Part shown: positions 3 through 64,000 of the stretch, piece by piece
Numbering within the stretch: position 1 is the first letter of the stretch
How the letters are laid out: the number at the start of each line of letters is the position of its first letter
The notes under the pieces: model-generated
The model's database searches: none
Seen by the model: the letters and a program-made list of their open reading frames with translations, nothing else
Told to the model about the DNA's origin: nothing
Translations under genes and position numbers: made by a program
Source: Candidatus Synechococcus calcipolaris G9
Lineage (GTDB): Bacteria; Cyanobacteriota; Cyanobacteriia; Thermosynechococcales; Thermosynechococcaceae
Length of the DNA stretch: 64,000 nucleotides
Direction: 5' to 3'
NCBI RefSeq assembly: GCF_029582805.1
Contig: NZ_JAKKUT010000002.1
Location: 644,001 to 708,000 of the forward strand

Positions 3-3000
3 TTAGCATGTCGAACGTTTGTATTTCCAGCAATTTTAGAAGAGGGGCTAAAGCATCTTTGGAAAGAAGCTAACTTTGCAATTTATGAGTTAGCCCCACT
101 TCGCCGTATAGACATTATCGAAGCCGCGAAAGCTGAAGGACTTTCTTCTGATGATTTTCTAAAGGAAATTGATCAGAAAGATGTTGTGCCACTGGCAATC
201 AAACCAATCACTTTAGGTTTTTTGCTGAATACCTATCGTAAACATAATGGTCAGTTTCCGCCTAACCAGAAGCTGTATGAACTTTACCTTGAGGGATGCC
301 AAGAGCTATGTGCTGAACCGAAGGATAAAGAGCGTCATCCGCTAAGGTCAGTAAGTCATCTGGTTCCCGAAAAGCGTCTAATAGTTGCGGCTCGTATTGC
401 TGCAATTACAATTTTTGCGAACCGATTTGCAATATGGTTAGGCAGCAGAGCTGATATACCTGATGAGGACGTATTTCTCAATAATCTCTATGGTGACTAT
501 GAAAAGATAAATGGAAGTCCGTTTGAGATTACCAATAAAGTTATTAATGAGGTTTTAGATACTGGTTTATTCTCATCCCGTGGGTTGCATCGAATGGGAT
601 GGGCACATCAAACCTATGCTGAATTTCTAGCCGCTTGGTATTTGACCCAGCACGAAACACCTCTAGCACAGATAAGAAATTTAATCTTTTCATCTGAAGA
701 TCCAAATCATAAACTGATTCCTCAGCTTCATGAAACAGCGGCATGGCTAGCTAGCATGAGGTTAGATGTGCTTCAAGAGATCATCAAAACAGATCCAGAT
801 GTTCTTTTGCAAACTGATGTGCCTACTGATGCAGAGATCAGAGCATCTATTGTAGAGAACTTGTTGAAACAGTATGAAGAAGGAAAACTATTTGATAGAG
901 GTGGAAATAACTATCACAACTACGCGAAGCTCAAGCATTCTGGATTGGTTGAGCAATTACGCCCTTATATCTGTGATTCCAGTAAGAAGGTTGATGCACG
1001 AGATCTAGCGATCGATATTGCTGAAGTTTGTGAAATCTCTGAGCTTCAGGATGAGTTAGCAGAACTCGCTCTTGACTCAACACAATCAATCTATTTGAGA
1101 GTGAGCGCAGCTAATGCAATTTGTTCAGTTGGTAATGCAACTACGAGATTGAAGCTAAAGCCGCTTGCGACTGAACGATTGCCAGAGGATAAGGACGGTC
1201 GGCTTAAGGGATATGCTTTGAAAGCTGTTTGGCCAGATCATTTGACAGTAGAGGAATTATTTCAAACTCTGACTCGACCAAAGAAGAGGAACTTTTTTGG
1301 TGGCTATCAATGGTTTATTAACCATGAGTTAGTTCCGCAACTTCGGTCAGAACACTTGGTGGTTGCTCTTGATTGGCTTAAAGGACAAGGTCTACGATGC
1401 TTTGGACATCCATTTGAGGAATTTGGAGATGCCCTTCTCTTCAAAGCATGGGAAAACTTCGATTTACCTGGAGTAGCAGAAAGTTTCACTCAAGTAGCTC
1501 TAGTCCAGTGGGAAGAGCATCAGAAGATTATTACCTATAATAGACAGCTACAAGAGCAATTTGCTTCTTCGCTTTTGCACGATAGCAAAAAACGACGTAC
1601 TCTAATCGAGCAAGCTGTTTTGGCTATTTCAGGAACAGGAAAAGATCCATTCTTTCTATTAAGCTCCTTAACAGAAGCTATTTTGGTTTCAGAAGATATT
1701 TTCTGGATGCTTGAAAAACTCCAAACTTCTAATGGTGAAGCGGCTCAGAAAATTTGGGCACAACTGATTCAGTGGAGTTTCAACCGCCAGAATGTCAATC
1801 AAATAGATGCAATTATTGTAGCCACTGAGACTAATAATATTTTGCAAGAAGTTTTTTCATCTTACTTTGCGCCTATTGAGCTAAATTCATCTCAAGTTAA
1901 AAAAATGAGGGTTGATCACCTCAGAGTGGAAGAAATGCAAGCGCATAGACAAAATCCTCCTTTGCTAGATCCACCACCCAGAGAACGAGTCCTCCAAGTT
2001 TTAGAAAAGTTAGAATCTGGAGATTTATCTGCTTGGTGGCAGCTTAATATGGAAATGACTCTCAAACCTGATAGCACACACTATGATAATGAGTTTGAAT
2101 TAGATTTGACTAAGCTTCCTGGATGGCAAGATGCAGAAGAGGCTATTCAAATAAGAATTATTGAAGGCGCGAAGGAGTATGTTCAGAAGCAAGATGATGT
2201 AGATTATGACTGGATAGGGACGAACACTTTCAACCGACCCGCGTTAGCAGGTTGCAGAGCTTTACAGCTACTTTCGACAAAAAGCTCAGATTTCTTAGAA
2301 AATCTCCCACCTGAAATATGGCAAAGATGGGCACCTATCATCATTGGTACTAGGATTAGCAATCAACATGAAGATTCCTATTTAGAAATAGCTAGGCACG
2401 CTTACCTAAATGCTTCTCAAGAATTTATCCAGACTTTGATAGCGCTGATTAACAAAGAGAATCAGGAACATAGCTATCTATCTGTGATTGATCACCTTGA
2501 TAGGTGCTGGAATGAGCAGTTGAAGTTGGTTTTGTTAGAAAAGGCTAAAGATCCATCACTTAAACCCAAATGCATCGGGCAACTACTTGAAGAACTTCTA
2601 AAGCAAGGATTAAATGAAGCTAAAGACTTTGCCAGATCTCTGATTTCTTTGCCCCTGTCATTAGATGAGAATGAGCGCGAAAAAGCTCTAATGGCTTCTA
2701 GAGTACTAGTTGAAAATTCAGATCCATCCAGTTGGTCATTCATCTGGACACTCATTCAGCAAGATTCATCATTTGGGCGGGAAATTCTTGAATTAGTTGC
2801 CTATCGTTACTCACACGGAATTCAGCTAAATTTAGCTGAGCTACAATTGGCTGACCTCTATATTTGGCTAGTGCATGAATATCCTTACAATGAAGATCCT
2901 GAGCATAGTGAGATGATAGCTTACGCCGTCACAGCTAGAGATGGTATTGCAAGACTAAGAGATAGTGTTTTATCACAATTGAAAGAACGAGGGACTCAAG

Positions 3001-3566
3001 AAGCCTGTACTGAAATTCAACGTCTTATCCAAGAACTACCGGATATTACTTGGCTTAGCAAAGTCCTGATCGATGCTCAGGCAAATATGCGTCGCAATAC
3101 TTGGAAGCCATCCACGCCAGAGCAGATTTTGCAACTTGTAGGTAGTCATCAGATAACCAATCAAAATACACATATTCAGACAGGAGTTCTAATTATGCCG
3201 GGATCGAATAATCCAAATCTTAACTTTGGTGGTTCTGTAGGAGCAGTTAATTTCAATAGCACCGTCCATGGAGATCAAATCGGTACAGTACATAACTATA
3301 CTTCAGACCAAAATTTGGTAGAAGCCTTTGATGAGATTCAGCAGATTTTCAACCTGCTTACTCAAACTTATCCAACTTCAACCGCATCCGAGCAACAGAT
3401 TGTTGTGGCAGAGGCAGTAAAGGAGGTACAGCAAAACCCAACTTTGATGATGCGTGTGAAAGTTGGCGGACAGGCATTCCTCTTTGAAGCACTGCAAAAG
3501 GCTTCAGATCAGTGGTGGATTAGCCCATTTTTGAAAGCGATCGAAGCCGGAATTAAAGGTGAGTAA
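3..3566 (+). CDS. NACHT-type STAND protein, C-terminal part (5' end outside window)
   Basis: The frame is open from the left edge, so at least the nucleotide-binding P-loop lies outside the window; 1187 residues are visible. The first ~230 read like the winged-helix/arm region that follows a NACHT ATPase: a LAPLRRIDIIEAA stretch, then PLAIKPITLGFLL, then HQTYAEFLAAWYL near residue 201, a variant of the HQxFxEFLAA signature. Then come ~850 residues of alpha-helical, HEAT-like repeats, the usual ligand-sensing superhelix. The last ~115 residues (nt 3195-3566) form a separate module: a Gly/Asn-rich beta-prone stretch (NFGGSVGAVNFN...) followed by a helical domain with EIQQIFNLLTQTYPT. I recall similar tails on cyanobacterial conflict proteins. 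The likely role is sensing of phage or other threats. Position next to a broken antitoxin and IS elements, and the absence of HIP1 sites, fit an accessory origin. The effector is not visible. Confidence 0.8.
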   Translation, partial: LACRTFVFPAILEEGLKHLWKEANFAIYELAPLRRIDIIEAAKAEGLSSDDFLKEIDQKDVVPLAIKPITLGFLLNTYRKHNGQFPPNQKLYELYLEGCQELCAEPKDKERHPLRSVSHLVPEKRLIVAARIAAITIFANRFAIWLGSRADIPDEDVFLNNLYGDYEKINGSPFEITNKVINEVLDTGLFSSRGLHRMGWAHQTYAEFLAAWYLTQHETPLAQIRNLIFSSEDPNHKLIPQLHETAAWLASMRLDVLQEIIKTDPDVLLQTDVPTDAEIRASIVENLLKQYEEGKLFDRGGNNYHNYAKLKHSGLVEQLRPYICDSSKKVDARDLAIDIAEVCEISELQDELAELALDSTQSIYLRVSAANAICSVGNATTRLKLKPLATERLPEDKDGRLKGYALKAVWPDHLTVEELFQTLTRPKKRNFFGGYQWFINHELVPQLRSEHLVVALDWLKGQGLRCFGHPFEEFGDALLFKAWENFDLPGVAESFTQVALVQWEEHQKIITYNRQLQEQFASSLLHDSKKRRTLIEQAVLAISGTGKDPFFLLSSLTEAILVSEDIFWMLEKLQTSNGEAAQKIWAQLIQWSFNRQNVNQIDAIIVATETNNILQEVFSSYFAPIELNSSQVKKMRVDHLRVEEMQAHRQNPPLLDPPPRERVLQVLEKLESGDLSAWWQLNMEMTLKPDSTHYDNEFELDLTKLPGWQDAEEAIQIRIIEGAKEYVQKQDDVDYDWIGTNTFNRPALAGCRALQLLSTKSSDFLENLPPEIWQRWAPIIIGTRISNQHEDSYLEIARHAYLNASQEFIQTLIALINKENQEHSYLSVIDHLDRCWNEQLKLVLLEKAKDPSLKPKCIGQLLEELLKQGLNEAKDFARSLISLPLSLDENEREKALMASRVLVENSDPSSWSFIWTLIQQDSSFGREILELVAYRYSHGIQLNLAELQLADLYIWLVHEYPYNEDPEHSEMIAYAVTARDGIARLRDSVLSQLKERGTQEACTEIQRLIQELPDITWLSKVLIDAQANMRRNTWKPSTPEQILQLVGSHQITNQNTHIQTGVLIMPGSNNPNLNFGGSVGAVNFNSTVHGDQIGTVHNYTSDQNLVEAFDEIQQIFNLLTQTYPTSTASEQQIVVAEAVKEVQQNPTLMMRVKVGGQAFLFEALQKASDQWWISPFLKAIEAGIKGE

Positions 3567-3601
3567 TGGATCATATCTGAATAATCAATGGAGAAAAAAG
3601 C

Positions 3602-3670
3602 ATGCAAATCACGATCGATCTACCGCCAGATATTGAACAAGACTTGACTCGGCAAGCTGACCCTGACTGA
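3602..3670 (+). pseudogene. Antitoxin N-terminus truncated by IS3 insertion
   Basis: An ATG at 3602, preceded by GGAG about 10 nt upstream, opens a frame reading MQITIDLPPDIEQDLTRQA, the typical start of small cyanobacterial ribbon-helix-helix/VapB-like antitoxins. After 18 codons the sequence passes into the left inverted repeat of the IS3 element (from 3658) and stops at 3668-3670. The rest of the antitoxin and any toxin are missing on the far side of the IS, where an unrelated IS630 fragment begins. The product would be non-functional. Confidence 0.6.
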
Positions 3671-3717
3671 AAAAAGTGGACAAACTCCAAGAGTCGCCAA
3701 TGAAGGAGAATGTCCAA

Positions 3718-4026
3718 ATGAGCCAAAAACCAAGACGAACATTTACTGCCGAACAAAAAGCTCAAGCTGTGGCAATTGTGCAACAGTCAGGGAAGCCGAT
3801 CAGCCACGTCGCCCAGGAAATGGGTTTGACAGAAAGTGCCCTACGCCAATGGGTCAAACAAGCAATCATTGACCAGGGTGGTGGCAACCAAGGGGCATTG
3901 ACCACGCAGGAACGGGCGGAACTGACGGCATTACGCAAAGACTTGAAGCGGGTCGAGATGGAGCGTGATTTCCTAAAAAAAGCCGCAGCCTTCTTTGCAC
4001 GGGAAAGTTCAGACCCTATGAGCTAA
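3718..4026 (+). CDS. IS3-family transposase OrfA (HTH subunit)
   Basis: 102 residues if started at the ATG at 3718, which has AAGGAG ten bases upstream; GTG 3676 and ATG 3700 are in frame but lack such a site. An N-terminal helix-turn-helix of the transposase_8 type (FTAEQKAQAVAIV, then VAQEMGLTESALRQWVKQ) is followed by a leucine-zipper-like heptad segment (LTALRKDLKRVEMERDFLKKAAAFFA) that mediates multimerisation. A slippery A AAA AAG motif (3976-3982) near the 3' end allows -1 frameshifting into orfB, giving the OrfAB transposase. OrfA alone normally binds the ends and regulates transposition. Confidence 0.92.
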   Translation: MSQKPRRTFTAEQKAQAVAIVQQSGKPISHVAQEMGLTESALRQWVKQAIIDQGGGNQGALTTQERAELTALRKDLKRVEMERDFLKKAAAFFARESSDPMS

Positions 4027-4061
4027 TCGATGCCCAGAAGGCACATTTTCCCATCAGCCTG

Positions 4062-4898
4062 ATGTGCCAGGTCTTAAAGCAATCGAGAAGTGGCTATTAT
4101 GCCTGGTGCAACCGACCATTATCGCCCCGAGGTAAGGAGAATGAGACATTGAGCCAAATGATTCAACAGATTCAGCAAGAGAGCCGTCAAACCTATGGCT
4201 CACCGAGGATACAAGCAGCCTTAGCTGCTCAAGGCTTCCCGATCAGCCGTCAACGGGTGATCCGATTAATGGCAAACTTGGGGATCAATGCCCATCTGCG
4301 ACGGAAATTTAAGGGAACAACGGATTCAAATCATCGGCTACCGATAGCAGAGAATACCTTAGATCGTTGCTTTAAGACAGATGCCTCAGACCAAGTGTGG
4401 GTGGCCGATATCACCTATATCTGGACAGCCGAAGGATGGGTCTATCTAGCGGTCATTCTCGACCTATTCTCTCGTAGGGTGGTGGGATGGTCTATTGCCG
4501 AGCATTTGCGCACCGAACTGGTTTTGACCGCGTTGTCTGCCGCCTTGGGACACCGGAAACCGTCAAGCGCTGGTTTATTATTTCACTCAGACCGGGGGTC
4601 ACAATATGCCAGTCACGACTATCAACAGGCACTAAGGCAAGCTAATATAGCCTGTAGTATGAGCCGTCGGGGCAACTGCTGGGATAATGCGGTCGCTGAA
4701 CGCTTTTTCGGCACGATAAAAACCGAGCTGATTCACCCCACGGTGTTTCCAAACCGGGCGATTGCCAGGACGACCATTGTTGAATGGATTGAAGTCTTCT
4801 ACAACCGTAAACGCCTTCATTCCACTCTCGGTTTTCTATCCCCTGCTCAATTTGAGGATCAGTATTACCGCTCCCTAATTTCACCCATTTCCGCTTAA
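4062..4898 (+). CDS. IS3-family transposase OrfB (DDE catalytic domain)
   Basis: 278 residues from ATG 4062; in the frameshifted OrfAB product the reading frame joins at about 3981 and continues through RPYELIDAQKAHFPISLMCQ. An HTH_21 region (YGSPRIQAALAAQG) precedes the rve integrase core. The DDE triad is visible: Asp in WVADITYIW, Asp in LFHSDRGSQYAS and Glu in NAVAERFFGTIK, with exactly 35 residues between the second Asp and the Glu. The frame is intact to the stop, so this copy is potentially active. Confidence 0.93.
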   Translation: MCQVLKQSRSGYYAWCNRPLSPRGKENETLSQMIQQIQQESRQTYGSPRIQAALAAQGFPISRQRVIRLMANLGINAHLRRKFKGTTDSNHRLPIAENTLDRCFKTDASDQVWVADITYIWTAEGWVYLAVILDLFSRRVVGWSIAEHLRTELVLTALSAALGHRKPSSAGLLFHSDRGSQYASHDYQQALRQANIACSMSRRGNCWDNAVAERFFGTIKTELIHPTVFPNRAIARTTIVEWIEVFYNRKRLHSTLGFLSPAQFEDQYYRSLISPISA

Positions 4899-4929
4899 TT
4901 TCACTGTCCACTTTTTCCAGACATGGTCA

Positions 4930-5137
4930 CTTGGGTTCCCCAGTAGTTCAATTTGAGACCCTCTATCCCTTGTTCCTGGTAGCGTTGACAGCACGCACTC
5001 ACAAACCCGATGGATACCTGGAGGACATCACGGATTTCCCGATAGGTATCGTTTTGTTGACTCATGTGTACAGCAAGAGCACGTTTGAGTTCTCGGGGGT
5101 TGGGATTGCTTTGGATGAACTGTTCGAGGGTTTCCAT
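4930..5137 (-). pseudogene. IS630-family transposase, N-terminal fragment
   Basis: On the minus strand from ATG 5137 the frame reads METLEQFIQSNPNPRELKRA and continues through a winged HTH (YREIRDVLQVSIGFVSACCQ) to LKLNYWGTQV, matching the start of cyanobacterial IS630-type transposases. It runs straight into the right end of the IS3 element at 4929, where the homologous sequence is cut after about 70 codons; the last residues are IS3 inverted-repeat sequence. The DDE domain is missing and is not found on the other side of the IS3. It is a dead fragment. Confidence 0.75.
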
Positions 5138-5229
5138 GGGGGTGGTCTAAATTTTTCTCTAAGGACTCCTCTCAGTTTAACTCTTGTTCATAATTTATTT
5201 CAGATCGCTATAGCAATGAGATCGTCAGG

Positions 5230-5997
5230 ATGGAGCGTTTAGAACACAGTCATAATCGTCTAGTTTTGCGCGATCGCCCGTGGCTATTTTGGATCATGGG
5301 AGTCGTGTTCATCGGCATGATTACCTTCCCCCTCTTTACAATTGGCAAACATGAGGTTCTTTGCCGTCGATTTACACCCACGGATGGACAATGCCGACTA
5401 ACAAGTAGGTATATCTTGGCGGGAACCCGGATTCAGCGTGTTCCGATTCAAGCAATTCAGGAAGCGCGAGTGGATTCTAAACGAAGTCGCAACAGCCGCA
5501 GCTACCAAGTACAATTGATTACCCGTGAAGGGATCGTTAGATTTGGAACCTATAACTCCGGGGCCCAATGGCATAACAGTTTAGCTAGTCGCATCAATCA
5601 ATTTGTGACTAATCCGCAAATTGTAGAACTACAAGAGGAGCGGGACGATCGCTGGTTTGCCCTTGGCATTAGTAGCATATTTATCTGTTCTGCGCTTGTG
5701 ATGGTACTTGGCTTTGGCAAAACTTTGATTCTTGATTTTGATAAGACCCAAGGCACTCTCACCATGACCTATAAGGGGGTTTTTGGTCAAACCGTCCGGG
5801 AATATAATCTTCAGTATATTCATGCTGTTGATGTGGAATCAGCGCGATCCTCCAAGGGGGGAATGGTTTATGGCATAACCCTCGTCATGAATTCTGGCGA
5901 TCGGGTGCCAATACGAAGCTATAAAACCAGCAACCGCAAGCCCAAAGAGGAAACCGCCGCCGACATTCGCACATTTTTAGGTCTGAAACCCTTTTAA
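5230..5997 (+). CDS. Conserved membrane protein with two TM segments
   Basis: 255 residues, family not recognised. Hydrophobic segments at about residues 18-36 (PWLFWIMGVVFIGMITFPLF) and 145-168 flank a ~100-residue soluble region. A second soluble domain follows (FDKTQGTLTMTYKGVFG, then a basic SYKTSNRKPKEETAADIRTF). The two soluble segments look related: both are short beta-rich stretches of PH-like character, as often seen in small cyanobacterial membrane proteins. The start ATG 5230 follows GTCAGG. It is the first core gene after the IS island and contains the first HIP1 site of the window at about 5271. It converges with queF, only 6 bp apart. Confidence 0.7.
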   Translation: MERLEHSHNRLVLRDRPWLFWIMGVVFIGMITFPLFTIGKHEVLCRRFTPTDGQCRLTSRYILAGTRIQRVPIQAIQEARVDSKRSRNSRSYQVQLITREGIVRFGTYNSGAQWHNSLASRINQFVTNPQIVELQEERDDRWFALGISSIFICSALVMVLGFGKTLILDFDKTQGTLTMTYKGVFGQTVREYNLQYIHAVDVESARSSKGGMVYGITLVMNSGDRVPIRSYKTSNRKPKEETAADIRTFLGLKPF

Positions 5998-14682: not shown

Positions 14683-15555
14683 CTATCCAAGATGATGCTC
14701 AATGGCGATCGCCAGTTGGGTATGTAAATGATGGCTCGCCTTAAACGCAACATAGTGGGCAACAGGAGGTACGCCAAGGAGGGATAGATCTCCCCAAAAA
14801 TCGAGAATTTTATGACGTACCGGCTCATCGGCAAAACGTAGGGGGGGATTCAACCAGCCCTCATGACTACAAACCAGGGCATTTTCAAGACTTCCCCCTT
14901 GAATTAAGCCAGCCGAACGTAGTTGCTCAACTTGTTCAGCAAAACCAAAGGTACGGGCCGGGGCAATCTCGTGACTTAAATCACTTAACTCTACGGTTCG
15001 CCACTGTTGACCAATCACCGCATAGTCAAATTCAATGCCGTAACTCAGGCGCGTCCGAGGGGACGGGAATGCGGCAACAAAGGCCTCTCCAGCATGGATG
15101 GTGATCGCCTCGCTTAGGATGCGTTGGTTGCGAGGAGAATCCTGGAGAATGACTCCAGACTCAAGGATCGGCCCTAACCAGGCCTGGGCAGATCCATCTA
15201 GCAACGGGACTTCTGGACCCGTGATTTGAATGATTACATTATCAACGCCAGCGATCGCTAGGGCCGCTAATAAATGCTCCACTGTTCGTATAGATACATC
15301 AGACGCAATCAGTTCCGTTGATAGTTGACTGGAGCGAACCTGTTGCACCTGGGCTTTAATGCCTGGGCGATCGGGTAAATCCACCCGGACAAAGACGCGG
15401 CCATAATCCACTGGCGCAGGCTCTAGGCAGACCTTTACATCTAGTCCAGAATGGAGACCAATTCCTGACCAGCTTAATGAGCGGACGAGGGTGTGTTGGC
15501 GATCGCTAAGAATGGGCGATCGCTGGGACAACACCTGCACATCCTGAACCCCCAT
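14683..15555 (-). CDS. lpxC: UDP-3-O-acyl-N-acetylglucosamine deacetylase
   Basis: 290 residues. The zinc-dependent deacetylase catalyses the committed step of lipid A synthesis. Zinc and catalytic residues are in the expected order: His in SIRTVEHLLAALAI, then HKILDFWGDLSLLG giving His and Asp, and the general-base His in FKASHHLHTQLA. The N-terminal substrate-grip LVRSLSWSGIGLHSG is present and VPLLDGSAQAW is typical. It starts 2 bp after the bamA stop, so the two outer-membrane biogenesis genes are probably translationally coupled. Confidence 0.94.
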   Translation of the reverse strand: MGVQDVQVLSQRSPILSDRQHTLVRSLSWSGIGLHSGLDVKVCLEPAPVDYGRVFVRVDLPDRPGIKAQVQQVRSSQLSTELIASDVSIRTVEHLLAALAIAGVDNVIIQITGPEVPLLDGSAQAWLGPILESGVILQDSPRNQRILSEAITIHAGEAFVAAFPSPRTRLSYGIEFDYAVIGQQWRTVELSDLSHEIAPARTFGFAEQVEQLRSAGLIQGGSLENALVCSHEGWLNPPLRFADEPVRHKILDFWGDLSLLGVPPVAHYVAFKASHHLHTQLAIAIEHHLG

Positions 15556-44390: not shown

Positions 44391-44820
44391 AGGTTCCCCC
44401 TATCCGATACGGGTTGACACTTAATAATATCCTAACCATTTTTTACGGATTTATCACTTTATATCTTTTTCATATCTTTCATATTAAGTTAAGCATGGGA
44501 CAAATTGAAACTTAAAATAATATAAAATTTCAAAGACTATACTAACTTCAAACACTATGCTAAGAAGCTGTGGCTGAACTTATTCTGGCTCCCTGAATTT
44601 TAAGAATGTTGGTCGATAAAAAATCCAATAATTAGTCCTTCTCTAACGGTCAATAAAGTTCTTATAAAGTTGCTATCATGGGACACACCAAAGCCGCTAT
44701 TCTTTGGGAGCTATCTTTCATTAAACAATACCGCCGAAGCCAATGGCAAAGCGATATACAGGTTGATAGATTTGTACAAAAAACTTAATTATTGGAAATA
44801 TTTCTACCCCGCGTTGGGAA
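44391..44820. promoter_or_regulatory. 430-bp AT-rich divergent promoter region
   Basis: No gene is supported. The gap separates the leftward ferredoxin gene from the rightward 1058-aa protein gene, so it carries both promoters. It is strongly AT-rich from 44440 to 44660, with several TATAAT-like hexamers but no single convincing pair of boxes. Confidence 0.35.
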
Positions 44821-47800
44821 ATGGTAATGCTGAATAAAATTCCAGAGAAATATATGCATCTGGTGCGCTGGAGTCTGGCCCTTGGCTGGCTGGTCTTGAT
44901 TACATCCCTCTTTTATGATCCCATCTCTGAAGCTTTGACGGATCCGGCCTCTGGCAGCCCCTTTCGTTTACGGGGCGACTGTCTCAGTTTTCAGGGGGAG
45001 TGCAAAGAGCCGATTCCTTACCCAATGGGGGCACGCATTTTTTGGGGCATGGTGGTTCCATCGGTGGTGGTGACCTTAGTTACCCTGAGTCACGAGGCCT
45101 GGCGACGGCTTTGTCCCTTGGCCTTTTTCTCCCAAATTCCCCGCTCCCTAGGGTGGCAGCGCAAACGGAAAATTACCAATCCCCAGACGAAAAAAACTCG
45201 CTATGAGTTGGTGGCCATTGAGGCGAATTCCTGGCTGGGGCGCAATCGTCTGTATGTGCAAATGGGCCTATTGTTTTTGGGTTTGGTGGTTCGCCTCCTT
45301 TTTGTCAACTCCGATCGCTGGGCCTTGGGCGTGTTTCTGATCGTGGTGATTTTGCTGGCGATCGCAGTGGGCTTTTTATATCCCGGAAAATCCTGGTGTC
45401 AGTATTTTTGCCCCATGGCTCCGGTGCAGGAAATTTATACCGGCCCCCGGGGTCTGTTGGGGAGTGAGGCCCATCAGGGCGGTCCCCAGGGCATTACCCA
45501 GTCCATGTGCCGCTCCGTAACGGACAAGGGGACGGAAAAAAGTGTTTGTGTCAGTTGCCAGTCCCCCTGCATGGATATTGATGCGGAGCGGGCCTACTGG
45601 GATCGGGTGCAGCAGCCGGAGCGGCGATTACTTTACTACGGGTATTTGGGCCTGGTAATTGGTTTTTTCCTGTACTTCTTTTTCTATACCGGGAATGCCA
45701 ATTTCTTGGGGGGCACGGTTTGGCTAGAGCGGCAACAACTCTCGACCCTTATGGGGCCGGGTTTTTATATTGGTGGCACTGCATGGCCTATTCCTAAATT
45801 AGTGGCGGTTCCCCTAACCTTAGGGGTCTTTGTTGCCCTCACCTATGGCTTGGGGTTTGGCATCGAGGGGGCCTATCGCCAGTACCTAAAGGGTAAATCC
45901 GTAACATTGCCCGAATCGACCCTGCGTCACCAGTTGTTTACCCTCTTTGCCTTTAGTGCCTTTACCTGTCTCTACTTTTTGGGGGTTCGTCCCACCTTGG
46001 GTTGGCTGCAACCCTTTCGGCCTTTGGTGGATTGGGGTTTAGTTGTGGCGATCGCCCTTTGGTGTTATCGAACCCTGGGGCGCAGTGCGGATCAATACCA
46101 ACGGGAAAGCGTCAGTCACAGCTTGCGGCGGCAATTGGCCAAATTTGGCCCGGATCTGGATCGGGTCTTGGGGGGGCGATCGCTCTCGGATCTGCGCACC
46201 GATGAAGTGTATGTCCTAGCCAAAGTATTACCCGGCTTTAATCATCAAAAGAGCCTGCAGATCTATCGGGAAGTGCTGCGGGAAGCCCTGGAAAATGGCA
46301 CCGTTAATTCCGTGAGTAGTTTAGTGGTACTCCAAGGGTTGCGGAATCAGTTGGGCATTAGTGACACAGAACACCAGCAACTCTTACAGGATGTGGGCAT
46401 TAATGATCCTGGGCTACTATCCCCAGAGAAGGCAGCTTCTCGGGAACAGCGGTTACGTCTGCGGGGCTACCGCCAGTCCATTGAAGGTCTCTTTTTGGAG
46501 GGGGTGCAGGGGGGAATTCCCCTCAACGAGATGATCACCCAAAAACAGGATGCTCTCCAGGCCCTCAAGCAGGAATACAACATTAATCCAGAGGAGGAAG
46601 CCACGGTTTTAGCGGAACTGTTGAATCAGAATAGTATTTTTTACAAATCCGGCGAGAAATTACTTCAACAACTGCACCTCCTCCATCAGCAACGCCAAAT
46701 TCTCCGCCAGAGTTCTCCCCTGACTGCGCCCGTCTACGACTTTTTGATTCATTTCCTCGATGGTCAACAGCAGATGGTGAGTCAACAGTTTTTAGGTATT
46801 CTTGAGATTTTGGGTAACACCCCAGAGGCGATGAACCTCGCCCAAGCTGTAGGTAGCCAACTGCCCGATGATCCCCTTTTTCAATCGGCCCTATTGCGCC
46901 ATTCCCCAGCAATGCCTCCTTGGCGCGATCGCCTCAGCCCGGCCATTTTTAATCAGTTGCAACGATTACAGACAGAAACCCGAGTGCGTTTAGAGGAGAG
47001 TGGATCGGCGAAGCAGGGGAAAACCCTAGGGGTGTTGACGGATCTGCTGCAATCCCCTGAAGCCCTGATCCGGGCGGCCAGTTTGTGGGCGATCGCCCAG
47101 ATTGATGCTAAGGCAGGAAAACAGTATGCAGCCCAACTGGGCCAGGCCCCTGCGAGAACCCTGGATATTGACAACATTGTCGCCGATACCGCCCAAGGAA
47201 TTTTAGGTAAATCCACCCCAACTGCCCAGCCCATCGAAAACCTAGAGATTACCATTGATCACGTCCAGACGACCCAGGTGCAATTTTGGCATCAGACCCG
47301 CATTACCATTGGTCGGGATCCCGGGAATGATGTGGTTATTCCTGATAGTCGCGTCTCCCGAAACCACGCGGTCTTAGACATTAGCACTCAGGGCGTACAC
47401 CTCCAGGATTTGGGCAGTGTCAATGGCTTGGTCTATCAAAATAAGGTGATTCACAAAGAGACCATTCCCCTGAAATCCGGCGATCGCATTGGTTTTAGTC
47501 GTTCAGGCAGCCCCGCCATTGTCGTTAGTTGGCAAACGTCTAGGGATACTGCTATGGGTTTGAGTACCCTGGAAAAAGCCCTTTGGTTAGCCCATGCCCC
47601 CCTCTTTCGGGACATTCCCCACTTGGATCTATTGGAATTAGCCCTAGCGAGTCAGGTGCGGGGGTATCATCCTGGAAATTCCCTTTGTATTATTGGCGAT
47701 ACCGCCGATGAGGTTCTACTCCTTGTGCGGGGATCCGCCGATGTTCAGGTGGGCACAACCTCCAGTTTGGTGCGGTTGGGAACCATTACTCCCGGACAAA

Positions 47801-54828: not shown

Positions 54829-55445
54829 TAACGAACCTCAACCAGACAATAAAATAAACAGGACTTATGCAGAGTTATTTAATATTGAGGAATGAGATTT
54901 ACCAAATTAGACTACTGCCAATATTTACTCAGCAGTCCCGTCAACTATACCCTGACAAATCTGGCTGACCATCTTGAAGGGGTCAGTCTATAGGCCACAC
55001 AAGATAAACCTAGAGGTATCAATAAGCTATAAGCCTTGTCCTATAAGGGATTTAAGACGTTTATAGACAAACTTGGACTTAAATAATACGGAGAGAGAGT
55101 CACTATCAATGAGGCTCAAAATAGCCTTTATGACTAGGTTCATATAGAGGGTGCCCCAAAAGTGCCCCCAAAAGATCGTTGCTTGGAAAAGATGGGAATA
55201 GACTTTTATAGATACCGCCGGGCGTAAATTCCCTGTCATTGGCGTTTCATCTGCCAGCCCCAGAACTGGTGTGAACAGTGAGATGTTAGCTTATTATTTT
55301 CTTGTAAAAGTTTGAAGTCTCATTCAGACATGGGATGATTGCCTTAAGAATTTTTCATTTAACTGAACCCAGGTGTCCGCCTGGGTTTCTTTTTTTGGTG
55401 CATCCTCTCAGAAGCTTTTCCAAATATTACACCGTAGCAATGCAC
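54829..55445. other. 617-bp intergenic region at the left boundary of the integrated element
   Basis: No convincing coding sequence. A 70-codon minus-strand frame (55027-55239) has no ribosome-binding site and an atypical composition. No tRNA gene or clear direct repeat marking an attachment site was recognised. The region ends with a strong rho-independent terminator at 55366-55397. The junction between core chromosome and element is probably somewhere in here. Confidence 0.4.
55366..55397 (+). terminator. Rho-independent terminator
   Basis: Perfect 8-bp stem AACCCAGG (55366-55373) with CCTGGGTT (55380-55387), a 6-nt loop, followed by TCTTTTTTTGG. It terminates plus-strand transcription. 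No plus-strand protein gene ends upstream, so it may close a short non-coding RNA starting near an AT-rich promoter-like stretch at 55280-55310. Confidence 0.8.
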
Positions 55446-55840: not shown

Positions 55841-55958
55841 TTATAACGGCATATAGCAGGATATAACGTGAATCATTAGCCCAACTTATGCTATCCAGTT
55901 ATAACGGGTTATATTCTTATCATCTATCTATTGTTTTATCCCATTATAACGGGTTATA
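55841..55958. promoter_or_regulatory. Palindromic operator-like sites TTATAACGGGTTATA
   Basis: The palindrome TTATAACGGGTTATA (arms ATAAC/GTTAT) occurs at 55899-55913 and 55944-55958. A related TTATAACGGCATATA is at 55841-55855 and a half site GATATAAC at 55860-55867. They sit between the divergent genes 55820 (minus) and 56035 (plus), the usual place for repressor operators. The two perfect copies are 45 bp apart centre to centre. Confidence 0.6.
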
Positions 55959-56034
55959 TTTGAATGCAAGTCAAAGGGGCGATCGCCTGCAAGCAAAACC
56001 GCCCCTATTCCCCCCAAAAGGAGATTTCCTCATT

Positions 56035-58411: not shown

Positions 58412-58771
58412 TCAAGCGATCGCTGGGGGTTGGGTGAGGAGAATAGTCGCACCGGCGCGATCGCCCGGCACATGATCTATGGACAAGCTAGGCAGACAGG
58501 AAAGGCGGTCATCCACGACCACACCGGCTTGCACCAAGGCATCAAGGATCGCACCGGCTAGATTGTCTAAATCACCCCGATGGGAGCCATGGAGGTGGAT
58601 TGTTGCCGTCACCCTCTTTAGGGGCTGCCAATGGGCAGGGAGTTGGTCGGTAATTTGGGCGATCGCCCCATCCTTCCATTGCCGATAGCCTTCCGGCAGA
58701 TAGGTGGTTTTGCCCGTAAAGCGGGGTCTGGCTTTGGGTGTAACTCGCCCCTCTAGGACTAGCTCAATCAC
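58412..58771 (-). CDS. RusA-family crossover junction endodeoxyribonuclease
   Basis: 119 residues, the length of RusA. Start MIELVLEGRVTPKARPRF matches the family's first strand and KxRPR motif. The acidic active-site cluster is HRGDLDNLAGAILDALVQAG followed by VVVDDRL, i.e. the DxDN and DD motifs. RusA resolves Holliday junctions and is typical of lambdoid phages and satellites, where it processes replication intermediates. Overlaps the upstream gene by 4 bp. Confidence 0.88.
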   Translation of the reverse strand: MIELVLEGRVTPKARPRFTGKTTYLPEGYRQWKDGAIAQITDQLPAHWQPLKRVTATIHLHGSHRGDLDNLAGAILDALVQAGVVVDDRLSCLPSLSIDHVPGDRAGATILLTQPPAIA

Positions 58772-59785: not shown

Positions 59786-60241
59786 CTACCTGAATCTTGG
59801 CTGCTGCCGCCACGCTTCCTCTAGTTTGCGAATAAAATCCTGTGGCTGGATGTCTAGCTCTACACAGCGTTTGATAATGTCCTCTATGGTTTCAGGACGA
59901 CGGGCCCGGTAGGCATCGAGTAATTTAACGAGGGCAGAGATCGCCCCCTCCTTGGATTTGACTGGAGCCATCAGCCCCCATTCCTTCACGTCTGCGATCG
60001 CTGCTTCCAGTAGTCCGATCTGGTCTATAGGGTCGTGTTGGCTAATGCGATGGGCGATCGCCCCCTGAATCGTGTCTGCTGCTGCCTGGGTTGCTAATTT
60101 ATCCGCTCCCCAGTTCTCGGCTTTGCACCGCCGCCGCGCCGTGGGATAGCTGACTCCATGCTTTGCTGCTAGGGCTTTCAGGTTTCCTTGCCCGGCAATG
60201 TAGTCTCTTTTGAGTTTGTGAATCGCAAAATCATTACTCAT
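59786..60241 (-). CDS. Terminase small subunit-like protein
   Basis: 151 residues from ATG 60241 (MSNDFAIHKLKRDYIAGQGN); the frame opens at 60310 without a better start. The N-terminal HTH reads LKALAAKHGVSYPTARRRCK followed by AENW, the typical terminase-small-subunit pattern (Y..G...l..lA.k.gvs..t.r.r...e.W). The remaining helices may form the oligomerisation core. In phages TerS selects DNA for packaging; without an adjacent TerL it could redirect a helper phage's packaging, as in satellites. Confidence 0.65.
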   Translation of the reverse strand: MSNDFAIHKLKRDYIAGQGNLKALAAKHGVSYPTARRRCKAENWGADKLATQAAADTIQGAIAHRISQHDPIDQIGLLEAAIADVKEWGLMAPVKSKEGAISALVKLLDAYRARRPETIEDIIKRCVELDIQPQDFIRKLEEAWRQQPRFR

Positions 60242-60545
60242 GAGGGATGCCTCTAAACGCCAGATTGCCCCCAAAAGTGCGATCGCAACATAGAAAGCAC
60301 CCGGGGGCAATTACATGAGTGAAGTGCTTGGTCAGCGAGTTTCTCCCGCTAGTGATGGTTGCCCACTTCTGGCTTCGTCCTATGCAGCGGCTAACTTGCA
60401 AGTCCACCAGCGTCACTTCCCACCCAGCACGGCGGTAGGCCTATATTTTAACCCACCCTACACTTCAGGGCGCAGGACATGAGGATTCTTGACGAGTTGA
60501 CCCCTAACTACGCCACTATAGAGGTAGTCGGTTGAAGGAAAAACA
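60242..60545. other. 304-bp region with one unsupported 55-codon ORF
   Basis: The plus strand has a frame ATG 60315 to TGA 60482 (MSEVLGQRVSPASDGCPLLA..., ending NPPYTSGRRT) without a ribosome-binding site. The DNA is GC-rich and looks like a remnant of another element, perhaps the 3' flank of an IS200/IS605-type unit, but I cannot prove it. The end carries the hicBA promoter region (GAAGGA before 60546). Confidence 0.3.
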
Positions 60546-60755
60546 ATGTTGATCCGCGTGATTCTGGAATGGGATAAGGACGCTGACGCTTACTCTGCAA
60601 CGTGCCCAGAGCTAAACTTTGTTTCCTCATGCGGCCACACAAAGGAAGAGGCGATCGCCAGTTTGAAAGAGGCGATCCAGTTGATGCTTGAACCCCTTCC
60701 TGACCAATTCCTTGACACGGACAATCCAAGAGAGACCTTGAAGTTAACCGTTTGA
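60546..60755 (+). CDS. hicB: HicB-family antitoxin
   Basis: 69 residues. The HicB core reads LIRVILEWDKDADAYSATCP and ELNFVSSCGHTKEEAIASLK, with the typical EAIQLMLEPLP helix. A C-terminal DNA-binding domain is not present, so it is the short form. Ribosome-binding site GAAGGA ten bases upstream. It precedes hicA by 30 bp, the less common B-A order. Confidence 0.85.
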   Translation: MLIRVILEWDKDADAYSATCPELNFVSSCGHTKEEAIASLKEAIQLMLEPLPDQFLDTDNPRETLKLTV

Positions 60756-60785: not shown

Positions 60786-61001
60786 ATGCCCAAAACACCA
60801 CGACTAACAGCCAGTGAAGTTATCAAACAGTTAATAGCTGCTGGTTTTGTGGAGGTGGGACAAACAGGCTCCCATCGGAAACTTTTTCAACCAGACACCC
60901 GAAAAACAACGATTGTGCCAATTCATGGGAATAAAATCCTTCCTATTGGAACACTTAAGGCAATTGAAAAACAGTCAGGGATAAAATTCCTCCACAGTTA
61001 G
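60786..61001 (+). CDS. hicA: HicA-family mRNA interferase toxin
   Basis: 71 residues. dsRBD-like fold with ASEVIKQLIAAGFVEVGQTG and the catalytic His in GSHRKLFQ, followed by TTIVPIHGNKILPIGTLKAI. It cleaves mRNA when HicB is degraded. The pair could stabilise the element. Its end overlaps the convergent gene 60998 by 4 bp. Confidence 0.87.
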   Translation: MPKTPRLTASEVIKQLIAAGFVEVGQTGSHRKLFQPDTRKTTIVPIHGNKILPIGTLKAIEKQSGIKFLHS

Positions 61002-61495
61002 CGACTCGCTTGCGATGCCGCTTCCTTCAGGGCTTGGCGATCGCTGAACATCAACGCCGCCCAGAATCTTTTTTTCTCCTGGGGGAGAGTCCCGAAGACT
61101 TCGGCAAAAACAAGGAGTAGATCAGCCCAAATATCGGGGTCTTTGATCTGTTCTTGGCGGGCGATCGCCACAAACCGAAAGCACTCCCGCACGTCTGGGG
61201 ATAGTCGTAGGGCTTGGTTTAGTCGCTCCTGCTCTGCTTCGGTGCGATCGCCCGGCATAGTGGGAATCCCTAGGAGTTGGGCTAATTCCTGGATTTCTGG
61301 ATGTGGTGCGGGGCGATCGTCTACCGGATCGTGGGCATGGCTGAACCAATCAGGCCCCTTCGCTAAAGCTGCCTCTAGCCTCTCCAAATCCTCGCGGCTG
61401 CGTTCTGAAGGCTGGGCAGGAATGTGCAGGGCTTGGATTAACTGCCGGACTTGGCGGGGTCGCCAACCGTGATCTTTCGCAAAATTTGCATTCAT
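60998..61495 (-). CDS. Element protein with an internal duplicated segment
   Basis: 165 residues. Two similar helical segments, VRQLIQALHIPAQPSERSRE then DLERLEAAL and IQELAQLLGIPTMPGDRTEA then EQERLNQAL, about 50 residues apart, show an internal repeat. The C-terminal third is helical (IWADLLLVFAEVFGTLPQEK). Function unknown; sits just downstream of the helicase gene and its repeat-rich end. Confidence 0.55.
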   Translation of the reverse strand: MNANFAKDHGWRPRQVRQLIQALHIPAQPSERSREDLERLEAALAKGPDWFSHAHDPVDDRPAPHPEIQELAQLLGIPTMPGDRTEAEQERLNQALRLSPDVRECFRFVAIARQEQIKDPDIWADLLLVFAEVFGTLPQEKKRFWAALMFSDRQALKEAASQASR

Positions 61496-61578
61496 TCCTC
61501 AAAAATCCCCTCCCAGGAATCTGCCTCCAAATTCTCAGGAGAGTTGTTTTGCTCAAACTGGGCAAGATGGTCAAGATG

Positions 61579-61898
61579 CCCAAGATGACCGTTACTAGAA
61601 GCCTTGCCAGGAGAGGGTTTCAGACCATCTTGGGCAGTTTGATTTTCGGGTACAACTGCCCAAGATCGGGGTTATCTTCGCTGCCTTGCCCAAGATTCCC
61701 ATTGGTGATTTTTTTGCCATGAGTGCTTGTTGTCTCCAGAATCGACCCCTGATATTGGGATCCATCTTGGGCAGTTGGGGGGTTGATCTTGGGCACTTGC
61801 TCAACTGCCCAAGAAGGCTCAACCTCTTTCCCTGAGAGGGTTTTAGACACCCCATCTTGGGCATCTTGGGCATCTTGGGCATCTTGGGCAGTTTGGGC
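61579..61898. repeat. Iteron-like cluster of TCTTGGGCA (11 exact copies, both strands)
   Basis: CTTGGGC cores lie at 61629, 61766, 61788, 61856, 61865, 61874 and 61883 on the plus strand, and GCCCAAG at 61579, 61658, 61688 and 61807; all 11 extend to the 9-mer TCTTGGGCA. The four at 61856-61889 are tandem with a 9-bp period. The copies read as AQD, LGQ, PK or SWA in the overlapping protein, so DNA rather than protein sequence is conserved. A ~70-bp gap (61695-61765) with a T-run separates two groups. Confidence 0.85.
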
Positions 61899-64000
61899 AA
61901 AACTAATTCCTAAGATTACTGGGCGATAGTTTGTTGAATTTTCTATGCGCTCCCGCAGCTTTTTCGCTTTTGGAAAAATCTCCAGCAAACGGGACGCTAT
62001 TTGGTTCACACCCTTTACGTTTTTGTCGCCCCGTTTAGCCTGGTCAACCCAGGTGAGTTTTTCCTTGCCCTTGGCGGTGGTGGGTGGTTCGACAATCAAA
62101 GTGCCTTGCGAAATGTACCAATCCCGCAAACGCGCCCAAAGCTCGTTAACAGGAACCTGTCCGGTGGGGTCGGATACTAGCCCGGCATCCTCGCAAAACT
62201 GAAGCAGGTGACAAGATTCCCGCTGAATCTCATCAAGATAATGGTTAGTGGAAGAATAATCCACTCCCTCGATTACCACCGCTTGGAGGTGGGCGATCAG
62301 GTCGTTCAGGAATGCGGGAAGAATTTTGTCTTGAATAAAAGAAGGGTCTTCCTTGTATCGCGCGTCCGCCTGTAGCTGCCCTGCGACGGGGTTTTGCGCG
62401 TAGGTTTTGTTAAAAGGGACTATGCCCCACCGTGACTTGGTGGCCTCTAATTGCGCGACTAGATTAGGTGCTTCGTTGAGGTTAAAAAGAAAAACCGCTT
62501 TAGGCTGCTCCTGGATTGAATCCGAGTATTTTCGTTCAAAGTCGATTGGATCGCCGGTGATCGCCGCCCTCAAGCCTTTTAATTGGTCAATCCGCCCAAC
62601 GTCTGCATTCTCACTGGGCCAAGCGATCGCCGCCCCCCGCAAGGCATAAACGCCAAACTTCCGCCCTGAGTCATACGCTTGCCAGTCGGTCACAGAAACA
62701 CCACTGATTCGCCCCTGCCCCAGTAACATCTGACAAATTGACCGAAGGGTATCTTTGCCGTTTGAGCCGTCGCCTTTTAGAAATAGGGCCTTTACCGCCC
62801 GTCCCTTGAATTTGCGTACTGTGGACAGGTCAAGGCTTGCGGCGATCGTCTTCAGAAAAATCTCGCGGGGTTGAGGATCAAGACACTGCATGAGTTTGTT
62901 GTAGTCGCCGGGGTCAGCCTGGGGGTCGTAGGTTGCCGCAGGTTCACCTATATATAGATGTTTGGTGGGGTCGTGGGGCTGGAGTTCGACCGTCAAATTC
63001 TTCGCCTCCCAAACGAAGGATAGACACCCATTGCGACAGTTCAGCCCTGGGGGATTCACCTCGGTTACTGTACACCCGAATTTTTGCCACTCTAAAATTT
63101 GCTTAACGAAAGTCGGCTTGGCAAAAGGAAAAGTATCAATTTCGCCCATCGTCTTGTCGATTTTGGTGACACAATACCGATTGCAAAACGCCTGAAGTCG
63201 CGGGAACTCCGATTCGTCGGGCACAGCTTGATAATGGGTTCCCTCCCACTTGTACAAAGTATTCCCAAAGCAGATCCAAGATTCGTCCTTGGGGTAGAGG
63301 GCTGCACAGGCTTTTTGCAGGAATTCTGTGCCCTCGTCGGCGATCGCCTGGGGATGATCCTTTTTGGGCTGGGGAGAGGGGGACTGCTTAGTAACCGCCA
63401 ATAGGCAATTCTCCAGCTTGTCCTCCGAGAGGGAGGGCCCTGGGTTAGACGATTGTGCAGATCGCCAAATCAGATCCGCCTCCCGCGCATCCAGGGCAGG
63501 GTTGCAGCGGGCACAAAACGAATCGAAAAGACCACGAGGATCAGGGTAAAAGCCCTTGCCCCGCAGCCATTGAGCCGTTCCGATTAAATCGCGGGCTAGT
63601 GCTGCCCCGCTACTGTTCCGGCTGCCCTCTCCGGCTCCACCCGTCACTAAATCACGGTGTCGTACCGCTAAACAGGCAAGTAAAATCTCGTCGTCAGATT
63701 TATTGGATGGCAGGAGTAGTGAGGGTTCTGGAGGATTGGCCCGGCTTGGAACAATAGCCCGTAACTCCTGGAAGGAGCACCGCTTGCCCGTATTGCCCAC
63801 AATCGTAGATTTTTGCCCTGTGCCTTGGTGGACGGCTCCGGCAAGCCGCATTACCCGGCTGGGATTTTTCAGGCTGCGATCGCCTGAAGCAAATTCCAGT
63901 AGGTCGGATTGTAGTTTTTTCCACTCCCCAGGCGCGATCGGCTCGTCAAACACCCAGTAGGAGTGGATTGACTTGCCTCCGGTATCCACCTGGACTGTCG
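61620..64000 (-). CDS. AEP primase/SF3 (D5-like) helicase, start outside window
   Basis: 793 residues are visible and the frame is open through the right edge. The visible N-terminus (VDTGGKSIHSYWVF) is AEP-primase motif II (SxH), so motif I lies beyond. PSRVMRLAGAVHQGTGQKST is a typical primase-linker motif. The helicase has Walker A FLKGDGSNGKDTLRSICQ, a Walker B-like AAIAWPSENAD and sensor FLFNLNEAPN, i.e. superfamily 3 with D5-like N-terminal region. The C-terminal ~100 residues are low-complexity (AQDAQDAQDAQDG) because of the DNA repeats. It should initiate element replication; the iteron-like cluster overlaps its 3' end. Confidence 0.88.
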   Translation of the reverse strand, partial: TVQVDTGGKSIHSYWVFDEPIAPGEWKKLQSDLLEFASGDRSLKNPSRVMRLAGAVHQGTGQKSTIVGNTGKRCSFQELRAIVPSRANPPEPSLLLPSNKSDDEILLACLAVRHRDLVTGGAGEGSRNSSGAALARDLIGTAQWLRGKGFYPDPRGLFDSFCARCNPALDAREADLIWRSAQSSNPGPSLSEDKLENCLLAVTKQSPSPQPKKDHPQAIADEGTEFLQKACAALYPKDESWICFGNTLYKWEGTHYQAVPDESEFPRLQAFCNRYCVTKIDKTMGEIDTFPFAKPTFVKQILEWQKFGCTVTEVNPPGLNCRNGCLSFVWEAKNLTVELQPHDPTKHLYIGEPAATYDPQADPGDYNKLMQCLDPQPREIFLKTIAASLDLSTVRKFKGRAVKALFLKGDGSNGKDTLRSICQMLLGQGRISGVSVTDWQAYDSGRKFGVYALRGAAIAWPSENADVGRIDQLKGLRAAITGDPIDFERKYSDSIQEQPKAVFLFNLNEAPNLVAQLEATKSRWGIVPFNKTYAQNPVAGQLQADARYKEDPSFIQDKILPAFLNDLIAHLQAVVIEGVDYSSTNHYLDEIQRESCHLLQFCEDAGLVSDPTGQVPVNELWARLRDWYISQGTLIVEPPTTAKGKEKLTWVDQAKRGDKNVKGVNQIASRLLEIFPKAKKLRERIENSTNYRPVILGISFAQTAQDAQDAQDAQDGVSKTLSGKEVEPSWAVEQVPKINPPTAQDGSQYQGSILETTSTHGKKITNGNLGQGSEDNPDLGQLYPKIKLPKMV

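Follow-up and report, generated by a model that had tools for sequence, protein, structure and literature searches.

In Candidatus Synechococcus calcipolaris G9, a primase-helicase gene contains at its 3' end a dense array of the 9-bp repeat TCTTGGGCA, placed on both strands and mostly inside the coding sequence. Judging from the sequence, this array is very probably a replication origin made of iterons that the encoded initiator itself binds; the reading is based on the logic of SaPI Rep/Cch2 and of PICI origins and on the lambda-like placement of the repeats. The coordinates of the array, the gene, and the element that carries them are collected in Table 1.

In the window (the whole stretch of 64,000 nucleotides that was analysed), TCTTGGGCA has 12 exact copies, where 1.0 would be expected and none of 100 shuffles reaches 12. 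Eleven of them are packed into positions 61577–61890, and the remaining copy is elsewhere in the window. Seven array copies are on the + strand and four are on the − strand; four + strand copies form a tandem with a 9-bp period at 61855–61890. This recount agrees with the preliminary description of this DNA, which had reported eleven exact copies on both strands, four of them in tandem at 9 bp. The cluster itself, which was placed at 61579–61898, stands, but its exact ends were a few bases off. The genome-wide count of the 9-mer, proposed there as a check, has a peak at the array only: 88 copies are present in 3,298,730 bases, and their sole cluster is this one. At the genome background density, the probability of 11 copies in 314 bp is about 8e-32.

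Table 1. Features of the repeat array, the primase-helicase gene, and the integrative element (window positions unless stated otherwise).
Feature	Position	Strand	Remark
PrimPol-SF3 (DUF5906) primase-helicase gene, 896 aa	61620..64000, continuing beyond the window end to contig C2:708310	-	
Proposed origin, iteron array: 11 exact TCTTGGGCA and degenerate copies	61559..61899	.	
AT-richest 40 bp of the array, at the symmetry axis; proposed melting site	61706..61745	.	AT 0.60
Left arm of the 45-nt inverted repeat	61546..61590	.	past the stop codon
Right arm of the 45-nt inverted repeat	61859..61903	.	within the coding sequence
165-aa ORF directly downstream of the array	60998..61495	-	no confident family
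HicA-like toxin	60786-61001	+	
HicB-like antitoxin	60546-60755	+	
Terminase-small-subunit-like / HTH protein	59786..60310	-	weak match
RusA-like Holliday junction resolvase	58412..58771	-	
Far-end copy of the 114-bp att-like direct repeat	54986..55099	.	
Near copy of the 114-bp repeat, overlapping the tRNA-Ser(GCT) 3' end	L005:12587-12700, beyond the window		92% identical

Copies of TCTTGGGCA with two mismatches prolong the 9-bp tandem at both flanks, on the − strand at 61559, 61568, and 61577 and on the + strand over 61855–61899. When the degenerate copies are included, the strand order of the array is − − − + − − in one half and + + − + + + + + in the other, with an AT-richer centre between them. 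The array is bounded by an inverted repeat whose arms are 87% complementary; its axis, at approximately 61725, lies beside a T-run and the AT peak, which is modest. Exact spacing symmetry in the window array is not above chance (2 pairs versus 2.3 in the null), so that its symmetry is confined to the strand order and the inverted arms.

The copies occupy all three phases relative to the primase-helicase gene. One of them, at 61577, is located beyond the stop codon (61620–61622); the preliminary description had noted a copy past the stop. Since they are found on both strands and in three phases, no single peptide repeat accounts for them. In synonymous-codon shuffles, which preserve the protein sequence and its codon usage, no 8-mer exceeds 6 copies in 420 bp, versus 10 observed in the window gene. 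A protein repeat was therefore rejected as the cause of the array, and the constraint acts on the DNA. The earlier claim that the conserved unit is the DNA and not the protein is borne out by the homologues as well, which keep DNA arrays at this place while the protein repeats are not conserved. It is highly improbable that the repeats are a by-product without DNA function, i.e., a low-complexity protein tail or a slippage-expanded 9-bp repeat comparable to cyanobacterial short tandem repeats. Such a by-product would fit the four copies in perfect 9-bp tandem, read as AQD repeats, and the disorder of the encoded linker, but not the use of both strands and three phases, the failure of every synonymous shuffle to reach the observed count, or the recurrence of the position with unrelated sequences, often in mirror order.

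The only Pfam match of the 896-aa protein is DUF5906. In the AlphaFold model, the PrimPol domain (residues 2–188) resembles the N-terminal AEP domain of the cyanophage S-2L PrimPol (PDB 6ZP9; Z 19.6, 37% identical). For residues 322–806, which comprise the SF3 helicase and the C-terminal domain, the top solved match is the SaPI5 primase-helicase (7om0, Z 24.6), and the profile match of the protein to the same enzyme (7ola) has an E value of 5.8e-24. The P4-family profile TIGR01613 gives 65.9 bits, below its curated cut-off of 108.7, and the CyRepA signature (DUF3854 and a DEXD helicase) is absent. The predicted fold stops at residue ~807 and is followed by a linker (residues 808–896) with pLDDT < 50. 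The array starts in the gene where the fold ends, and it is the array that encodes the linker residues. The C-terminal domain spans about residues 690–810, and its wing was located by structure alignment and sequence divergence, not from a DNA complex.

The gene belongs to an element of ~11.6 kb, which is flanked at tRNA-Ser by 114-bp direct repeats (92% identical). A tyrosine integrase with Phage_integrase and Arm-DNA-bind_3 matches adjoins the tRNA gene. The element thus has the attributes of an integrative element: a tyrosine integrase, insertion at a tRNA 3' end, and flanking direct repeats. The single weak terminase-small-subunit-like match is its only packaging-related gene, and no ParA/ParB-like gene was found in it among the families scanned. 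Near the far end of the element, at the start of an ORF with a SWIM domain, there are two copies (92%) of a 24-nt AT-rich repeat (55892–55960). Outside the element, at 3676–4898, an adjacent ORF pair resembles, by eye, an IS3-type transposase.

A search for homologues in 390 genomes of the class revealed relatives in 52 of them, and wider loci were then compared. An intragenic cluster of one 8-mer beating all 100 synonymous shuffles was found at 33 of the 51 chromosomal or contig loci, the window's included; this fraction is only descriptive because some loci are closely related and several are truncated at a contig or locus boundary. The arrays are mostly located 200–600 bases before the stop of the gene. 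Their units are 8–9-mers that differ among the homologues: TGAACCAAA, TGAATCAAA, TGAAGCAAA, GGTGATCCT, GGTGACCC, TGGTGCGG, TGGGGCGG, TGACTCAC, CAGTAACC, CTGACAAA, and others. Arrays are also present in genes with DUF3987 or AAA_25 helicases. No significant intragenic array was detected at several loci (L053, L056, L071, L076, L084, and L086). At L053 and L056, repeat clusters lie outside the gene, 4.5–5.7 kb upstream of the gene end, and at L071 and L084 they lie 1.1–1.8 kb downstream. Relatives in viral contigs were sought, and none was confirmed. The primase-helicase of the L066 locus (2099–5512) contains a Dam-type N6-adenine methyltransferase domain (residues 354–471, E 1.1e-15), together with Toprim-like matches.

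Relatives of the gene were found on 60 annotated plasmids, nearly all of them cyanobacterial. Among 19 plasmid genes tested, 11 have a significant intragenic array, whose count is not reached in any of 100 synonymous shuffles, one is borderline, and seven have none (L088, L094, L095, L099, L100, L112, and pANA02). The intragenic placement is thus common, not universal. Two such plasmids of Nostoc sp. C057 have the different units CCGCACCA and CCGACCCA. In pANA02 of Anabaena sp. 90, whose DUF5906 gene has no array, 17 copies of CTGTCACC are located at 44707–44987, between a four-helix-bundle gene and cas6. In L088 (NC_021575.1), the strongest cluster of the plasmid, 22 copies of CCTGAGCG in ~430 bp (14752–15179), is in a pentapeptide-repeat gene and is probably a protein repeat. 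The GC skew of 15 whole plasmids has minima and maxima that are not consistently at the array; this disagreement gives no support either way for the position of the origin.

Plasmid iterons have roles in copy control and incompatibility as well as in initiation. The array might accordingly be a site for control or partition, acting through copy-number handcuffing or autorepression or in the manner of a centromere, and be bound by the initiator or another protein, with replication starting elsewhere. The arrays found outside the gene in some homologues are consistent with this explanation, which we nevertheless consider unlikely. The small complete Cyanobacterium aponinum plasmids of 4,586 and 4,363 bp have no short-repeat cluster besides the array anywhere in the molecule, so no other cluster is offered as an origin; the absence of ParA/ParB-like genes in the window's element, among the families scanned, and the agreement of the layout with PICI origins also speak for an origin.

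Mirror layout of the array is a property of several homologues. At the L049 locus, the copies of one strand are spaced 21-11-12-31-9 and those of the opposite strand 9-31-12-11-21, with an AT-rich gap between them, and the plasmids with TGGTGCGG share this plan. The L048 array has a 9-bp pair, followed by an opposite single copy and more copies, and then by the mirror image; the orientations in the window array have the same order. Against a null of shuffled spacings and orientations, the mirror symmetry is beyond chance (at most 4 of 500 shuffles) in L048, L049, L051, L054, L083, L089, L091, L093, and L096.

One chromosome (genome G088) carries both of the elements L047 and L048, the former near a tmRNA gene and the latter near a tRNA-Ala gene. 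Their sequences share 99.9% identity across 3,949 bp, as far as the FPKVRR motif in the C-terminal domain. After this motif, a block of ~450 or 360 bp differs, which comprises the end of the C-terminal domain and the array; beyond it, the elements are again ~95% identical. The unit of the L048 array is GGGTCACC, and the L047 array consists of 13 copies of [GC]TTCCA, a count reached in none of 2,000 shuffles. L047 retains five copies of GGGTCACC near its 3' end, which are relics of the old iteron. A comparable case is presented by L087 and L097, which represent two small plasmids that, according to the records, occur together in strains AL20115 and AL20118: the identity is 95% between the helicases and 49% between the C-terminal parts, and the iterons differ. 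Over 496 pairs, the similarity of the iterons tracks that of the C-terminal part when the helicase is controlled for (partial r 0.29; 0 of 300 permutations). These swaps suggest that the C-terminal binding domain and the array may form an exchangeable cassette.

This joint change bears on whether the iterons, while being the origin, are recognised not by the primase-helicase but by a distinct small protein encoded by the element or the host. Small RHH or HTH proteins are frequently encoded beside these genes, and DUF3987 or AAA_25 genes carry arrays despite their different helicase. Even so, a separate binder is also considered unlikely: the iterons and the C-terminal part of the initiator change together in otherwise near-identical elements, and SaPI Rep and Cch2 themselves bind their iterons (PMC7581432).

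The proposed binding of the array by its own initiator has close parallels in known systems. In SaPI Rep and SCCmec Cch2, the C-terminal domain binds iterons directly downstream of its own gene (PMC7581432). PICI origins consist of an AT-rich region flanked by two iteron sets, immediately after the rep gene (PMC6092414). The system described here resembles the SaPI/PICI origin with its Rep in the SF3 primase-helicase fold (PDB 7OLA/7OM0), in the position of the iterons on the 3' side of the initiator gene, and in two iteron sets around an AT-rich stretch, with the modest AT peak of the window and the mirror arrangement of the homologues. Unlike in PICIs, the array is mostly inside the coding sequence, the stop codon of the window gene lying within it, and most relatives of the gene are cyanobacterial plasmids. 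In four Streptococcus satellites examined, the primase gene is followed by a gap of ~210–350 bp, which contains the best repeats in three cases (L103, L104, and L106), at +3 to +306 after the stop. The reading of the array as an iteron origin in the preliminary description is supported, the outcomes of the computational checks being those predicted there. The likeness to SaPI-type satellites that it proposed holds for the fold, which is closest to SaPI5, and for the 3' side, but not for the placement relative to the stop. Since the relatives are mostly plasmids, the element may be something other than a phage satellite, and a SaPI-like satellite was not adopted as its necessary identity. Cch2 shares a Primase_Cterm/D5-type helicase and the binding of repeats just downstream, but it has three iterons at an intergenic site.

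In lambda, the iteron origin likewise lies inside the coding sequence of its own initiator gene, O (PMC3985674). However, O is not a helicase, and its four 19-bp iterons occupy the central part of the gene, whereas the arrays of the window type lie at the 3' end of a primase-helicase gene and consist of 8–9-bp iterons in mirror order on both strands. In cyanophage S-2L, the PrimPol gene has no repeat cluster of this kind near its 3' end. CyRepA proteins likewise serve the replication of cyanobacterial plasmids and combine primase-like with helicase domains, but their helicase belongs to another family; the gene and its flank suffice for replication (PMC10079941). The openly available passages searched in that paper and in PMC10899382, PMC6066503, and PMC9978351 do not mention iterons inside cyanobacterial Rep genes. 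The array combines a SaPI-like layout with a lambda-like intragenic placement.

We propose that the element is integrative and plasmid-like, with the array as its replication origin and the primase-helicase as a self-loading initiator of the P4/SaPI5 type. The winged-helix-like C-terminal domain would bind the 9-bp iterons, and two oligomers would form, one on each mirror-image half of the array. The AT-rich centre would then melt, the SF3 helicase would load, and the PrimPol domain would prime. The origin would sit in DNA coding for the disordered C-terminal linker, where the amino-acid constraint is weak; therefore, the wing and its target would make up one short cassette, swappable by a single recombination event. 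Exchange of the cassette would alter the specificity of the origin and so, probably, compatibility. A wider generalization, to which we give about equal credence and doubt, is that cyanobacterial plasmids and integrative elements include a self-contained replicon class, common to DUF5906, DUF3987, and AAA_25 helicase genes, in which the initiator wing and a mirror-symmetric iteron origin form one intragenic exchangeable cassette, and swaps make new compatibility groups in one step.

To our knowledge, replication origins have been identified for only a minority of cyanobacterial plasmids and integrative elements. If the proposed reading is true, an origin could be recognised directly in the initiator gene sequence, which would also allow sister replicons to be sorted into compatibility groups, and small shuttle replicons would need one gene only. 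One short stretch of DNA would both encode a part of a protein and serve as the target of that protein. The natural cassette swaps make the protein–DNA co-evolution of an origin directly testable, and the different repeats of sister elements may permit them to share one cell.
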